A model generated the notes under the pieces. That model searched no databases. It was not told the origin of the DNA and was given only the letters and a program-made list of their open reading frames with translations. Positions 7,018-12,522 of a stretch of 33,974 bases of DNA are shown here, in pieces; position 1 is the first letter of the stretch, and each line of letters starts with the position of its first letter. The stretch spans positions 1 to 33,974 of the forward strand of contig JAILHP010000053.1 in assembly GCA_024695705.1 (NCBI GenBank), written 5' to 3'. The translations under genes were made by a program, and so were the position numbers. The stretch comes from Prevotella sp. Lineage in GTDB: Bacteria; Bacteroidota; Bacteroidia; Bacteroidales; Bacteroidaceae.

Positions 7018-7050
7018 GCGAGGCTCCCATTTTGGAGCCTCGCTGCTTTT
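7018..7050 (+). terminator. Rho-independent terminator after rseP
   Basis: A perfect 10-bp stem (GCGAGGCTCC with GGAGCCTCGC, loop CATTTT) is followed by a short T-rich tract. It closes the tsaB-rseP transcription unit. Confidence 0.9.
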
Positions 7051-7069: not shown

Positions 7070-7102
7070 AAGTCGTCGAAAAAATCACAGGAAGTCGTCG
7101 AA
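7070..7102 (+). promoter_or_regulatory. Direct repeat, probable LytTR-type activator site
   Basis: AAGTCGTCGAA occurs perfectly at 7070-7080 and 7092-7102, 22 bp apart from start to start. The second copy ends 5 bp before a CTTG that is the candidate -33 element of the receptor-like gene. LytTR regulators are known to bind pairs of short direct repeats about two helical turns apart next to the promoter. A LytTR gene lies two genes downstream. The binding partner is inferred. Confidence 0.65.
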
Positions 7103-7107
7103 TGTTT

Positions 7108-7140
7108 CTTGGAGCGACTTGCTTTTTGCCATACCTTTGC
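7108..7140 (+). promoter_or_regulatory. Putative promoter of the outer-membrane beta-barrel gene
   Basis: CTTG at 7108-7111, a 20-nt spacer and TACCTTTGC at 7132-7140 fit the Bacteroidota promoter pattern. The imperfect -33 element suits an activated promoter. Confidence 0.75.
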
Positions 7141-7171: not shown

Positions 7172-9661
7172 ATGAAAACATTAAGAAACATTCTGGCAGT
7201 TCTGACCATCATGATGGCCCTGCCGACCACCGCACAGACAACAATCGTAAAGGGTATGGTGATTGACTCCCTGACACAGGAGAGCGTACCATACGCCACC
7301 GTACGCGTATTCAAAAAGAACAAGACCGACAAGCCCATAGCCATGTCGCTCACCGATATGGACGGCCGCTTCAACCAGGAAGTGAAGGGCGACGGACAGT
7401 TTACGCTGACCATCAACAGCGTAGGTTACAAGACCATCAACCACAACTTCACGGCCAACGGCAGCACCCTCGACCTAGGCAACATCCTGATGAGTGAGGA
7501 GCGTTCGTCTATCGGCCCCGTAGAGGTGGTGGCCCAGAAGCCTCTGGTGAAGATGGATACTGACAAGATGACCTATAACGTGGCCGAGGACGAGGACTCA
7601 AAGACCAACACCGTGCTCGACATGCTGCGCAAGGTACCCATGGTAACCGTTGATGGACAGGATAACATCACCGTTAACGGTCAGTCGAGTTTCAAGGTCT
7701 ATGTAGATGGCAAGCCCAATGCCATGTTCTCACAGAACGCCAACATGATATTCAAGAACATGCCCGCCTCTGCCGTGAAGAGTATCGAGGTCATCACCAA
7801 CCCGGGTGCTGCCTACGATGCAGAGGGTACCGGCGGTGTACTGAACATCGTAATGAATAAGACGCCCGAGGCTCAGGCCAGCCTCAACGGATATAATGCT
7901 ACGGTACGTGCCAACGTTGGTACACGTGGCTATGGCGGCGGTGCCTTCGCCAACGGTCAGCAGGGTAAGCTGTCGTTCAGCGCCAATGCCATGTACAGCT
8001 ACAACCATCCTGGCAGCAGCGACATCACCATGGAGCGCGAGCAGCTGGGCAATGCCGCCTCGTCGATGACGATGACCAGCAGCTCAGAGAACAAGATGCC
8101 ATTTGTGATGGGTTCGCTGAACATGGGCTACGAGCTCGACTCCATGAGTTCCATGAACCTCATGTTATCCGTCACCAGCATGAACGTGAAGAGCCCCTCC
8201 ACGTCAACTACCACAATGGGAGATGGTCTTTTCAGCTACACGCAGAATAATGACACGAAGACCGGCCGCACGTCGTTCACAGGAAGCCTTGACTACCAGC
8301 GTTTCTTCAACCGTGAGCGCACCAGCTCGATGGCTATCACCTACCAGCTGAGCACTGCCCCCACTCACTCCGAGACCTGGAGCAGCTTCGACATGGCCAA
8401 CAGCCTGCAGCCAACACCCTCAACCAGCTATGACCTCACCAACCGCTATTCCGACAACCACGAACATACCATTGAACATGTCCTGCAGACCGATTTCACC
8501 ACACCGCTGTCGTCGCTCAACAAGCTGAACTTCGGTGCCAAGCTCTCTGCCCGTCTCTCTGACTCCGACGCCAAGTACTACCTGAGCGACGTCTATAACG
8601 AGGGCATGAGCATGGACTACAGCCACAACAACACCATCGGCGCCGCTTACATGGAGTACGACGGACACTATGGTGACTTCGGCCTGAAGGCAGGACTGCG
8701 CTACGAGCACACCTGGCAGAACGTGGAGTACCGTCTGGGCAACACTAGCGACTTCGACACCAACTACGGCAACCTGATTCCCTCGGCCAGCCTGTCATAT
8801 ATGCTTGCTCCTACCAGCAACCTCGGCCTGACCTACAACATGCGCATCTCACGTCCGGGCATCTCGTACCTCAACCCCTACGTTGACCGCACGAACCCCA
8901 CCGCCCTGACATACGGTAACCCTGACCTCGACGTGGAGAAGTCGCACAACATCGGACTCGTATATAATATGTTCAGCACGAAGCTCATGGTGAATGCCCG
9001 ACTGACCTACTCGTTCTGCGACAACGGCATCGAACAGTTCAGCTTCTACAAGGACAACTTGCTGAACACCACCTACGGCAACACCGCAAAGCGTAACCTC
9101 ACCAGCCTCAGCCTCTACGGCTCATGGATGCCCTTCAAGACAACCCGTCTCTTCATGAACGGAAGCCTGAGCTACAGCGACCTAAGCAGCGACCAGCTGG
9201 GACTGAGCAACAACGGCTGGCAGGGCAACCTGATGGCAGGACTGCAGCAGACGCTGCCCGCCGACTTCAAGCTGAGCCTCTTCGCCATTACCTCTACCAA
9301 GAGCTACACGCTGCAGGGCTGGTCGTCAGGCTTCAACATGCTGACCGGTTCGCTCACAAAGTCGCTGCTCAACGACAAGCTGAACATCGGTGTACAGGGC
9401 ATGCTCGGACTCTCGAAGGGTGGATGTCTGGAGATTGAGAACTTCAGCCGCGGCGCCGACTTCACCAACCACATGCTCATCCGTGTTCCAATGAGCAGCG
9501 TTACGCTGACTGTCAGCTACACCTTCGGCAACTCAAAGAAGCAGCAGAAGATGTTCCAGAGCCGCGTACAAAGTGACTACATGGAGCACCAGAGCAACGA
9601 GGAGCGCATCAACAATGCCGGCGGTGAAGGAACAGGAACCGGAACTGGAATAGGAATGTAA
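7172..9661 (+). CDS. Outer-membrane beta-barrel family protein, TonB-receptor-like
   Basis: I place the start at the ATG 7172 (MKTLRNILAVLTIMMALPTT), because the ORF-track start lies inside the promoter. The 829-residue product has a signal peptide, a carboxypeptidase-regulatory-like domain (about residues 25-110), a plug-like region (about 120-230, with SVKSIEVITNPGAAYDAEGT) and a long aromatic-rich C-terminal barrel. This is the architecture of the Bacteroidota OMP_b-brl_3 group. The last barrel strand seems to be SSVTLTVSYTFG, followed by a charged tail ending in Gly/Thr repeats. The substrate is unknown. Upstream direct repeats and the downstream LytS/LytTR pair suggest regulation by that system. 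Confidence 0.88.
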   Translation: MKTLRNILAVLTIMMALPTTAQTTIVKGMVIDSLTQESVPYATVRVFKKNKTDKPIAMSLTDMDGRFNQEVKGDGQFTLTINSVGYKTINHNFTANGSTLDLGNILMSEERSSIGPVEVVAQKPLVKMDTDKMTYNVAEDEDSKTNTVLDMLRKVPMVTVDGQDNITVNGQSSFKVYVDGKPNAMFSQNANMIFKNMPASAVKSIEVITNPGAAYDAEGTGGVLNIVMNKTPEAQASLNGYNATVRANVGTRGYGGGAFANGQQGKLSFSANAMYSYNHPGSSDITMEREQLGNAASSMTMTSSSENKMPFVMGSLNMGYELDSMSSMNLMLSVTSMNVKSPSTSTTTMGDGLFSYTQNNDTKTGRTSFTGSLDYQRFFNRERTSSMAITYQLSTAPTHSETWSSFDMANSLQPTPSTSYDLTNRYSDNHEHTIEHVLQTDFTTPLSSLNKLNFGAKLSARLSDSDAKYYLSDVYNEGMSMDYSHNNTIGAAYMEYDGHYGDFGLKAGLRYEHTWQNVEYRLGNTSDFDTNYGNLIPSASLSYMLAPTSNLGLTYNMRISRPGISYLNPYVDRTNPTALTYGNPDLDVEKSHNIGLVYNMFSTKLMVNARLTYSFCDNGIEQFSFYKDNLLNTTYGNTAKRNLTSLSLYGSWMPFKTTRLFMNGSLSYSDLSSDQLGLSNNGWQGNLMAGLQQTLPADFKLSLFAITSTKSYTLQGWSSGFNMLTGSLTKSLLNDKLNIGVQGMLGLSKGGCLEIENFSRGADFTNHMLIRVPMSSVTLTVSYTFGNSKKQQKMFQSRVQSDYMEHQSNEERINNAGGEGTGTGTGIGM
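9629..9658 (+). repeat. Five hexamers at the 3' end of the beta-barrel gene
   Basis: GGAACA, GGAACC, GGAACT, GGAATA and GGAATG run in frame just before the stop and encode the tail GTGTGTGIGM. The period is 6, unlike the heptamer arrays, so copy-number change would not shift the frame. Confidence 0.85.
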
Positions 9662-9673
9662 GAGCATTGAACA

Positions 9674-9738
9674 TTGAGCTTTGAGCTTTGAATTTTATGA
9701 TTACCTGTTATGATTATTTAACAAAGCTCAAAGCTCAA
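9674..9738. repeat. Inverted pair of heptamer arrays, 17-bp perfect stem
   Basis: TTGAGCTTTGAGCTTTG at 9674-9690 is the exact reverse complement of 9722-9738, with a 31-nt loop. Both arms are arrays of the AAGCTCA heptamer in opposite orientation. The element fills most of the 105-bp spacer and ends 16 bp before the sensor kinase -7 box. It could act as a terminator or mRNA barrier, although no T tract follows. Confidence 0.85.
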
Positions 9739-9754
9739 AGTTCTAAGAAAAAAT

Positions 9755-9763
9755 TATCTTTGC
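9755..9763 (+). promoter_or_regulatory. Putative -7 box of the sensor kinase gene
   Basis: TATCTTTGC matches the Bacteroidota -7 element. It ends only 3 nt before the ATG at 9767, so the predicted transcript would have almost no leader. No clear -33 TTTG is present; the heptamer array occupies the region. Confidence 0.6.
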
Positions 9764-9766
9764 AGC

Positions 9767-10834
9767 ATGAAAATAAGTATTACAAGACAAAGTATCATAT
9801 TCTACGGACTGCAAGTGGCAGTATGGCTGGTGTTCCTGATGGTGCCAGCCATCTCCGCTTTCATTGCCACGCATAGCTGGTCGGGCTTCTTCGACGCCTT
9901 TAGCGTCAATGCCAGGATACACTGGGTGTCGGCCGCCATCTATTTTGTCAACACCCTCATCCTTGTGCCCTGGGGCTACTATAATAACCGCCGCTGGCTG
10001 TTCTGGGGAGGCAATGCCCTCATCTTGGGCTGGATGACTTACGTTTGGTTCCTGCGTTTCGACTCCCAGACATTCATGGAGCACGTGCCAGACCAACGAT
10101 TCAGCCATTATGCGCTGAGCAGCTATTATGCCTCGGCGCTGGTTGCCATCTTCATGAGTACTGCACTGGCTGGCATCGCCCTGTTGGTACACCATGTCTA
10201 TCGTGCCCAAGCCATCAAGCGTCAGTTGAAGGAGGAGCAGCAGAAACGTACGGAGGCGGAGCTGGAGTGGCTGAAGAACCAGCTGAACCCCCACTTCCTC
10301 TTCAATACGCTCAATAACATCTCGTCGCTCGTGCAGATTGATGCAGACAAGGCTCAGGATGCCATTGCCCAGCTCAGCGACCTGCTGCGCTACGCTATGT
10401 ACGAGACACGCCACGAGACCGTTCCCCTGCAAGGTGAGATGGAGTTTATGCGTAACTACGTGGAGCTAATGAAGCTGCGCCATAACGACAAGCTCAAGGT
10501 GACCACCGAGTGGCCCGACACTCCACCCTCCACACTTCACCTTCCACCTCTACTCTTCATCTCGCTCATCGAGAATGCCTTTAAGCATGGTGTCAGCAGT
10601 AACCGCGACTCAAGGATTGACATCAGCCTGACCGCCGACAACGACCAGATTACCTTTAGCTGCAACAACACCAACTACCCCAAGGACGAGCAGAACCGCA
10701 GCGGCTCAGGCATCGGCATCGAGAACACCCGTCGTCGCCTCGACCTCATGTACCCTGGCCGCTACACCTGGGACTACGGCGTGAACGATGACGGCACCGA
10801 GTATCACTCCTGCATAACAATAAATGGTAAATAA
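9767..10834 (+). CDS. LytS-type sensor histidine kinase
   Basis: The 355-residue protein has about four transmembrane segments in residues 1-150, a short coiled linker (KRQLKEEQQKRTEAELEWLK) and the His_kinase domain motif NQLNPHFLFNTLN with the phospho-acceptor His at residue 176. The ATP-binding N box reads SLIENAFKHGVS, and the C terminus has a GSGIGIENTRRRL G box. The stretch TPPSTLHLPPLLF before the N box is encoded by a heptamer array and includes the conserved PPLLF element. The regulator gene follows after 2 bp. No dedicated ligand domain is visible, so the signal is unknown. Confidence 0.93.
   Translation: MKISITRQSIIFYGLQVAVWLVFLMVPAISAFIATHSWSGFFDAFSVNARIHWVSAAIYFVNTLILVPWGYYNNRRWLFWGGNALILGWMTYVWFLRFDSQTFMEHVPDQRFSHYALSSYYASALVAIFMSTALAGIALLVHHVYRAQAIKRQLKEEQQKRTEAELEWLKNQLNPHFLFNTLNNISSLVQIDADKAQDAIAQLSDLLRYAMYETRHETVPLQGEMEFMRNYVELMKLRHNDKLKVTTEWPDTPPSTLHLPPLLFISLIENAFKHGVSSNRDSRIDISLTADNDQITFSCNNTNYPKDEQNRSGSGIGIENTRRRLDLMYPGRYTWDYGVNDDGTEYHSCITINGK
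10521..10555 (+). repeat. Period-7 array inside the sensor kinase gene
   Basis: CTCCACC, CTCCACA, CTTCACC, TTCCACC and TCTACTC run in frame. They encode the Pro/Leu-rich approach to the ATP-binding N box. The CxCCACC-like words resemble the CACTCAC arrays in rnpA. Confidence 0.75.
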
Positions 10835-10836
10835 TA

Positions 10837-11580
10837 ATGACTTGCATCATTGTTGACGACGAGCCGCTGGCTGTCAAACTCTTGGAATCGTTCGTAGCCC
10901 GCACCCCGCAGTTAGAACTCAAGGGTGCTTATACTGACAGCGTGGAAGCCATCGCCGCCCTGCGCGAGCAGCCTGTCGATCTTATATTCCTCGACATCCA
11001 GATGCCCGACATGGACGGTTTGGAGCTGGCTCACATGTTGCCCAAGGAAACCATGATTATCTTCACCACGGCCTTCAAGGAGTACGCCTTCGACAGCTAT
11101 GAGGTCAACACCGTTGATTTCCTCCTCAAGCCAGTACGCTATAACAAATTCCTGGCGGCTGTGGAGAAGGCAGAAGCAAGAAGCCCACAGCCTATCCCTC
11201 CGCCCTTCCCCAAGGAAAGGGAGATTCCCTCCCTTAGGGAGGGGATGGGGGTGGGCTTCTTCATCCGTGTCGATGGCGAGCTGCGTCAGTTGCAGTTTAA
11301 CGATATCCTTTATGTCAGCGGCATGAAGGACTACGTTATGTTCTACCTCAGCACGCAGCCCCGTCCGCTCATCACCCACATGACCATGAAGGCCGTGGAG
11401 GATATGCTGCCTGCCGACCGTTTTATGCGCGTACATCGTTCTTATATCGTGGCGCTCGACAAAATACGCAGCATCGACCGTAACGACTGCATCTACATTG
11501 GTGAGGAGATTATCCATGTCACCGAAGCCTTCCGTCAGCCATTCCAGGATTATGTTACCCGCCACTGCGTGGCGAAATGA
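10837..11580 (+). CDS. LytTR-family response regulator
   Basis: The 247-residue regulator has an N-terminal receiver domain (VDDEP acid pocket, phospho-acceptor D53 in IFLDIQMPDMDG, Lys in LLKPVR) and a C-terminal LytTR DNA-binding domain (about 142-245, with ILYVSGMKDYV and FMRVHRSYIV). It is the partner of the kinase just upstream. The linker (about residues 115-141, PIPPPFPKEREIPSLREGMG) is encoded by a palindromic REP-like insertion. The likely target is the direct repeat upstream of the beta-barrel gene. The stop codon lies in a heptamer array that continues to xerD. Confidence 0.93.
   Translation: MTCIIVDDEPLAVKLLESFVARTPQLELKGAYTDSVEAIAALREQPVDLIFLDIQMPDMDGLELAHMLPKETMIIFTTAFKEYAFDSYEVNTVDFLLKPVRYNKFLAAVEKAEARSPQPIPPPFPKEREIPSLREGMGVGFFIRVDGELRQLQFNDILYVSGMKDYVMFYLSTQPRPLITHMTMKAVEDMLPADRFMRVHRSYIVALDKIRSIDRNDCIYIGEEIIHVTEAFRQPFQDYVTRHCVAK
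11179..11260. repeat. REP-like palindromic element inside the LytTR gene
   Basis: Perfect 10-bp outer arms (AGAAGCCCAC with GTGGGCTTCT) enclose an inner hairpin CCCTCCC-TTA-GGGAGGG at 11227-11243 and a weaker one around 11203-11221, giving a potential three-way junction. The element is translated in frame as the interdomain linker. It is G/C-strand biased and unlike the flanking gene. Proline/glycine-coding palindromes of this kind recur in Bacteroidota genomes. Confidence 0.8.
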
Positions 11581-11625
11581 AGAATGAGAAAAGCTCAAAG
11601 CTCAATGATCAATGATCAAAGCTCC
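11574..11625 (+). repeat. Period-7 array bridging the LytTR stop and xerD start
   Basis: Seven consecutive heptamers (GAAATGA, AGAATGA, GAAAAGC, TCAAAGC, TCAATGA, TCAATGA, TCAAAGC) plus TCC begin in the last codons of the regulator, include its stop codon and end exactly at the ATG at 11626. If the upstream ATG at 11584 is used, the array encodes a 14-residue N-terminal extension of XerD. Confidence 0.85.
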
Positions 11626-12522
11626 ATGGTCAAGGCCTACGTCAGGTACTTGAAGCTGCAGCGGAACATGTCGGCCAACACGCTCGATGCCTATCAGCGT
11701 GACCTCGACAAACTGCTACTTTTCCTGAACCATGAGGGCAAAGACGTTGTCACCTTGGAGCTGGCCGACCTGCAGACTTTTGCCACCTCGCTCCACGATA
11801 TCGGCATCGGACCCCGTTCGCAGTGCCGCATACTGAGCGGCGTGCGTTCGTTCTTCCGTTTCCTGCAGCTTGACGGCTGGCGCGAGGATGACCCGTCGGA
11901 ACTTTTGGAATCGCCCGTGCTGGGCGAGCACCTGCCTGAAGTGCTTTCGACGGAAGAGGTTGACAGGCTGGAGGCCAGCATCGATGTCTCGAAACCTGAA
12001 GGCCATCGCAACCGCGCCATTATCGAAGTGCTGTTCTCTTGTGGCCTGCGTGTCAGCGAATTGGTCAATCTCAAGCTTTCCAACCTTTACACCGAGGAAC
12101 AGTATGTACGCATCTTCGGCAAAGGCTCGAAGGAGCGCCTAGTGCCCATTTCCGAGAAAGCCCTTCAGGAATTGAAAGACTGGTTTGCGTGCAGGAAGCA
12201 GTTGAAAATCAAGCCCGGCGAAGAGGACTATGTGTTCCTGAACCGTCGGGGAACCCACCTGACGCGCACCATGATTCTCATCATGATCAAGCAGCAGGCC
12301 GAGGAAGCAGGCATCCAGAAAACCATCTCGCCCCATACGCTGCGCCACTCCTTTGCCACGGCACTGCTCGAGGGCGGAGCCGACCTACGCGTCATCCAGG
12401 CGCTGCTGGGACACGAGTCCATCGGCACCACCGAGATATACACCCACATTGACATGAGCACACTGCGAGAGGAAATCATCAACCATCATCCAAGAAACAT
12501 GAAAAGCAAGTCAATTCAATAA
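11626..12522 (+). CDS. xerD: Site-specific tyrosine recombinase XerD
   Basis: XerD with XerC resolves chromosome dimers at dif. From the ATG at 11626 the protein has 298 residues, the normal length. It has an N-terminal SAM-like core-binding domain (YLKLQRNMSANTLDAYQRDL) and the catalytic set: Arg in CGLRVSELVNL, Lys in FGKGSKERLVPI, HTLRHSFATALLEGG, His in LLGHESIGTTEIYTH and the Tyr nucleophile in IYTHID. The ORF track begins at 11584, but the extra residues are repeat-derived, so I prefer 11626. It is 46 bp from the LytTR gene. No dif site was identified in the window. Confidence 0.93.
   Translation: MVKAYVRYLKLQRNMSANTLDAYQRDLDKLLLFLNHEGKDVVTLELADLQTFATSLHDIGIGPRSQCRILSGVRSFFRFLQLDGWREDDPSELLESPVLGEHLPEVLSTEEVDRLEASIDVSKPEGHRNRAIIEVLFSCGLRVSELVNLKLSNLYTEEQYVRIFGKGSKERLVPISEKALQELKDWFACRKQLKIKPGEEDYVFLNRRGTHLTRTMILIMIKQQAEEAGIQKTISPHTLRHSFATALLEGGADLRVIQALLGHESIGTTEIYTHIDMSTLREEIINHHPRNMKSKSIQ

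Follow-up and report, generated by a model that had tools for sequence, protein, structure and literature searches.

A conserved direct-repeat pair before a Prevotella outer-membrane barrel gene is a predicted operator of the LytTR regulator encoded downstream

The window, that is, the whole stretch of 33,974 nucleotides of Prevotella sp. DNA that was analysed, holds a gene for an outer-membrane barrel followed by genes for a LytS-type sensor kinase and a LytTR response regulator. The features that matter here all lie on the forward strand.

7018 to 7043, forward strand: intrinsic-terminator-like hairpin closing the preceding unit, that of an M50 protease (RseP-like)
7070 to 7080, forward strand: half-site 1, AAGTCGTCGAA, with core GTCGAA at 7075-7080
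7092 to 7102, forward strand: half-site 2, AAGTCGTCGAA, with core GTCGAA at 7097-7102
7109 to 7111, forward strand: -33 element TTG of a Bacteroidota-type promoter, 6 bp past the second repeat copy
7132 to 7139, forward strand: -7 element TACCTTTG, after a 20-bp spacer from the TTG
7172 to 9661, forward strand: outer-membrane barrel, 829 aa, putative target gene (CarboxypepD_reg-like, Plug and OMP_b-brl_3 / TonB_dep_Rec domains)
9669 to 9743, forward strand: strong hairpin in the barrel-kinase intergenic region, whose MFE is -35.8 kcal/mol (z -5.8)
9755 to 9762, forward strand: second -7-like box, TATCTTTG, 4 nt 5' of the kinase ATG
9767 to 10834, forward strand: LytS/YehU-type sensor histidine kinase (PF06580), 355 aa (E 9e-28)
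10837 to 11580, forward strand: response regulator with receiver and LytTR domains, 247 aa, proposed repeat binder (E 5e-20, 6e-17)
11521 to 11529, forward strand: codons of regulator residues T229-E230-A231, of which 229 and 231 vary with the base at position -2 of the site (T/A versus P/G)

The promoter and the gene order of beta-barrel, LytS and LytTR proposed by the initial annotation are both upheld by the window sequence and the domain matches. Because the terminator-like hairpin at 7018-7043 closes the protease unit, the barrel promoter opens a new one. The kinase and regulator form a LytS/LytTR two-component pair, with a PF06580-type histidine kinase adjoining a regulator that combines a receiver with a LytTR domain. 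The model of the latter DNA-binding domain has a pLDDT of 93.5, and its best structural matches are AgrA LytTR-DNA complexes. A tyrosine recombinase (XerD-like) gene, at 11584-12522 of the window, begins 3 nt past the regulator stop codon.

On the forward strand, AAGTCGTCGAA occurs at 7070-7080 and again at 7092-7102, with 0 mismatches and 22 bp from start to start, which matches in coordinates and spacing the perfect 11-nt repeat that the initial annotation had placed before the beta-barrel gene. This pair is the sole perfect 11-nt direct repeat with 21-23-bp spacing in the 34-kb window. When the whole window was subjected to dinucleotide shuffling, 8 of 200 shuffles contained such a repeat somewhere; when the 196-bp intergenic region was shuffled, just 5 of 20,000 trials yielded one, so the repeat in the barrel promoter goes beyond chance. 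The exact pair occurs once in the organism's own 2.18-Mb assembly (about 74% complete), where relaxed motif patterns returned no second promoter-placed copy, all of their matches being without a -7 box. An Rfam scan of the window detected tRNA only, and no RNA element at the repeat, which itself lies upstream of the expected transcript start.

Conservation was assessed in two ways. We searched 299 same-genus genomes for the repeat pair with at most 2 mismatches, and obtained matches in 19 genomes. All of these lay before the orthologous barrel, except copies of a dispersed element (G005, G145) and one match in G207 (L024/L051), which precedes a small secreted protein. Since this motif-first set was selected by the motif itself, we assembled a second, unbiased set by using the regulator alone as query, the motif playing no part. 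It comprised 80 same-genus loci outside the motif-first set, and orthologous regulators (at least 55% identity) separated cleanly from paralogs (at most 47%). Seven of the 80 loci were cut by contig ends, leaving 73 with an uncut upstream region, and the pair was present in 71 of them, 70 matching the strict core pattern and one, L122, departing from it by a single base. The pair is missing from two kinase-regulator loci, L159 (G217) and L161 (G143); both genomes have it instead in front of a barrel at another locus. Outside the genus, more distant orthologs that keep the pair are L226 (53%), L227 (50%, with ATTCGTCTA twice at 21 bp), L238 and L241 (both 48%); loci with 46% identity or less did not yield it. 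At the genome level, the motif occurs in 73 of the 87 genomes that have the regulator and in 35 of the other 212 (odds ratio 26, p 2e-28). The protein search missed several of these 35: G154 and G192 carry full barrel-kinase-regulator loci, and G018 a barrel and a kinase behind the pair. The reversed control pattern showed no association with the regulator (13/87 versus 38/212, p 0.6). The pair was detected in none of 20 paralogous LytTR loci and in none of 13 paralogous barrels, and a search before promoters of the paralogous LytTR loci for a 22-bp repeat of other sequence gave few promoter matches and nothing consistent. Thus the pair, which the initial annotation expected before orthologous barrels beside LytTR genes, is near universal there and absent from the paralogous loci and barrels.

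These data also bear on whether the repeat could be a product of chance or a fragment of a dispersed repeat element, as might be suspected from the intergenic 22-bp minisatellites containing GTCGAA in some other genomes of the genus. The pair is unique in its own genome, arises in only 5/20,000 intergenic shuffles and occupies a fixed promoter position in 87 loci; conservation refutes such an origin, to which we assign a practically negligible probability. The minisatellites, mostly intergenic, have units with GTCGAA (L323:1405-1524, L324:1250-1480, L325:1380-1560, L326:1400-1560), for example GGGTCGAAGCCCCGGGCTCCGT in 5.4 copies, and G020 has an 11-bp version; their 22-bp period is partly ascertainment, as the search pattern demanded it. 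The dispersed element, AAGTCGTCGAG...ACAAAGTCGTCGAC, has 17 copies in G145 and four in G005, none of them at LytTR loci; inverted copies of the same words adjoin at its loci (L015, L023, L026-L034, L052).

Alignment of 87 sites defined the anatomy of the pair. The core GTC(G/T)AA is invariant in both halves, the next base is mostly A, and the positions before the core are W, N, W and C/G. The repeat period is 22 in 81 sites and 21 in 6. In 85 of the 87 sites, also at period 21, 29 bp separate the second core from the -7 box; the half-site next to the promoter is thus fixed, and its distal partner can be displaced by one base. In addition, the T aligned with the -33 element is invariant in all 81 sites of 22-bp period. 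A transcription start about 7 nt past the -7 box would centre the pair near -60. If the site served repression, the bound regulator would block the barrel promoter until a signal removed it. The pair, however, lies wholly 5' of the -33 box, without overlap and in constant phase (29 bp, 85/87), a placement that is the arrangement at LytTR-activated promoters, and repression is accordingly given a low probability.

The base two before the core (position -2) is T or A, and the two halves agree in 84 of 87 sites, against a shuffle mean of 52. A tree-aware independent-pairs test of this agreement had too few informative pairs, and half-site covariation was thus left out as independent proof. A-type sites pair with regulators bearing N151, V207, P229 and G231, and T-type sites with Q151, L207, T229 and A231, all four residues falling within the LytTR domain. 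Since the A/T switch occurred once on the regulator tree, the covariation between site and residues amounts to one event; it is a strong lead. Three intermediates (L127, L136, L147) have a T-type first half-site and an A-type second one. We tentatively suggest that these residues might act as a LytTR DNA-specificity switch, N151/V207/P229/G231 directing the regulator to AACGTCGAA-type and Q151/L207/T229/A231 to TTCGTCGAA-like half-sites, a possibility somewhat short of even, which would keep two circuits apart in two-paralog genomes. Genomes holding both regulator paralogs include, for example, G044, G059, G081 and G262.

Might the pair be read by another transcription factor acting on the same operon, while the LytTR regulator works elsewhere? 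Its GTCGAA core differs from the textbook LytTR sequence, and the consensus half-site TTCGTCGAA comes near a 9-bp palindrome (TTCG-T-CGAA) that a helix-turn-helix dimer could read. Yet the conserved part is asymmetric, with GTCGAA invariant and the left arm variable, and the presence of the pair follows this regulator clade, not the paralogs. Moreover, the type of flanking base follows residues of the LytTR domain, and LytTR sites share the head-to-tail arrangement at 22 bp that precedes the -33 box here. We consider another reader very improbable, and the LytTR regulator the favoured one.

The association also holds in trans. In eight genomes (G017, G019, G084, G143, G163, G183, G217, G229), the barrel does not adjoin the kinase-regulator pair, and the site is kept. 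The repeat pair precedes whichever gene opens the operon, be it the barrel, a small secreted protein or the kinase, being directly 5' of the kinase gene in L144, L155 and L158. Some genomes have further putative targets, among them a predicted choloylglycine-hydrolase-family protein (L178) and, in L176 and L181, a secreted protein with a TonB_C domain. In L051, L186, L187 and L188, and in barrel-less operons, a secreted protein of about 120 aa replaces the barrel behind the same predicted operator; it has a YLEL-x(2)-DQ-like motif and no significant Pfam match. The "self-contained" circuit of the initial annotation thus fits the genome of the window, with one site found in an assembly about 74% complete, but not those relatives with extra targets.

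In the window, the second -7-like box just before the kinase start comes without a repeat pair, and the same holds for a TAnnTTTG box in 46 of 64 barrel-kinase loci, at a distance of mostly 11-16 nt. As the kinase-regulator pair has, there and in most relatives, its own repeat-free -7 box, the repeat is expected to act on the barrel, and the rest of the circuit need not depend on it. Of the sensor-regulator-receptor circuit first proposed, control of the barrel is retained, the site staying with the unlinked barrel. In the window, as in most relatives, this box stands a few nt 5' of the kinase ATG, which points to a kinase transcript with no leader or almost none. For the hairpin at 9669-9743, a terminator scan detected no T-run; it may attenuate or process read-through into the kinase.

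The locus could alternatively be one autoregulated operon under positive feedback, after the fashion of the S. mutans LRS operons, in which such repeats mediate positive feedback (PMC6193735), and the pair directly 5' of the kinase in L144, L155 and L158 would agree with this. Against it stand the repeat-free TAnnTTTG box just before the kinase start in 46/64 loci and, in the window, the very stable hairpin that parts barrel from kinase. Read-through may still occur. Because the kinase has a separate -7 box, we did not adopt the single-operon reading, which we judge unlikely while granting it some weight. Autoregulation appears not to be general, the kinase-regulator pair being usually under its own predicted promoter without the site, and only some lineages seem to feed back onto the regulator, whether through read-through or through a site 5' of the kinase. 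Most simply, a kinase-regulator unit expressed at a basal level would switch on a barrel unit.

Taken together, the observations support one reading: the site exists and is conserved, its placement relative to the promoter is fixed, it accompanies this regulator clade but not the paralogs, and it persists in trans. As the pair recurs with the regulator, keeps a fixed distance to the promoter and follows the relocated gene, it is very probably a LytTR landing site. We conclude, from sequence comparison, that it is very likely the operator of the LytTR regulator, through which the barrel would be activated. From this we infer binding by the regulator, the direction of its effect, its dependence on phosphorylation and the signal, as follows. 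The kinase-regulator pair would be produced at basal level, probably from its own -7 box just 5' of the kinase start, and a signal from the envelope or from outside the cell would prompt the sensor kinase to phosphorylate the regulator. Two LytTR domains of the regulator, encoded 3.7 kb downstream of the repeat pair, would then bind head-to-tail, one per GTCGAA half-site, on the same DNA face two helical turns apart. Centred some 60 bp ahead of the expected start of transcription and immediately 5' of the -33 box, the pair would bring the regulator into contact with RNA polymerase, and this contact would activate barrel transcription.

Bacteroidota have many LytS/LytTR pairs. Our literature search found no LytTR operator from Prevotella, and the repeat pair and regulator recur across dozens of related gut and rumen bacteria. 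The analysis provides a predicted operator, a promoter register, in-trans targets and candidate specificity residues for one large ortholog group, with the consequence that a few binding or reporter assays could test the whole family. It also ties a TonB-receptor-like outer-membrane protein to signalling through LytTR, a link that hints at sensing of the envelope or of nutrients.

A loose LytTR consensus is [TA][AC][CA]GTTN[AG][TG]. Only the GT and the purine position of the present half-site fit it, and a common consensus is said not to exist (PMC4847170). Published LytTR sites consist of two 9-11-nt repeats with 11-13-bp spacers and share no consensus (PMC4847170). The 11-nt repeats and 11-bp spacer of the window, and the period of 21-22 in 87 relatives, lie within this range, which bears out the LytTR-site geometry invoked by the initial annotation. 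By spacing and promoter placement, the present site hence belongs to a known kind. The S. mutans and Bacteroides LRS operons carry their repeats just 5' of their promoters, and the LRS-like operons of B. thetaiotaomicron have 11-nt direct repeats with an 11-bp spacer before a TATCTTTG-type promoter (PMC6193735). The Bacteroides thetaiotaomicron/ovatus operons (PMC6193735, Table 3) thus share repeat length, spacer and promoter type with the Prevotella site, but their repeats, TCCGGTATTCA / ACCGGAAATCA, are unrelated to it, and their regulators have transmembrane segments and NfeD/DUF2154-type membrane partners where Prevotella has a receiver-LytTR protein and a histidine kinase. By the same token, the Prevotella system is not of the S. 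mutans LRS type, in which a soluble receiver-less LytTR protein is paired with a membrane inhibitor. HaeR of P. gingivalis, a Bacteroidota two-component regulator of TonB receptors, was considered and set aside, the portion of text consulted giving no LytTR domain or direct repeats (PMC3764172). YpdA/YpdB of Escherichia coli likewise combines a LytS-type kinase and a LytTR regulator with one main target and tandem repeats (PMC4847170), but its site is GGCATTTCAT and its target, yhjX, is an inner-membrane transporter that does not adjoin the pair. AgrA/ComE-type operators (agr P2/P3), which LytTR domains read, have the same design, two direct repeats about two turns apart just 5' of the promoter, that of AgrA being centred near -60 (PMC4227749). 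By contrast with AgrA, the Prevotella site has a GTCGAA core, a Bacteroidota -33/-7 promoter, an outer-membrane barrel as target and, in most sites of the group, a period of 22 instead of 21, and in its regulator the residue matching AgrA N201 is an invariant R201, and AgrA R233 seems to correspond to T/P229.
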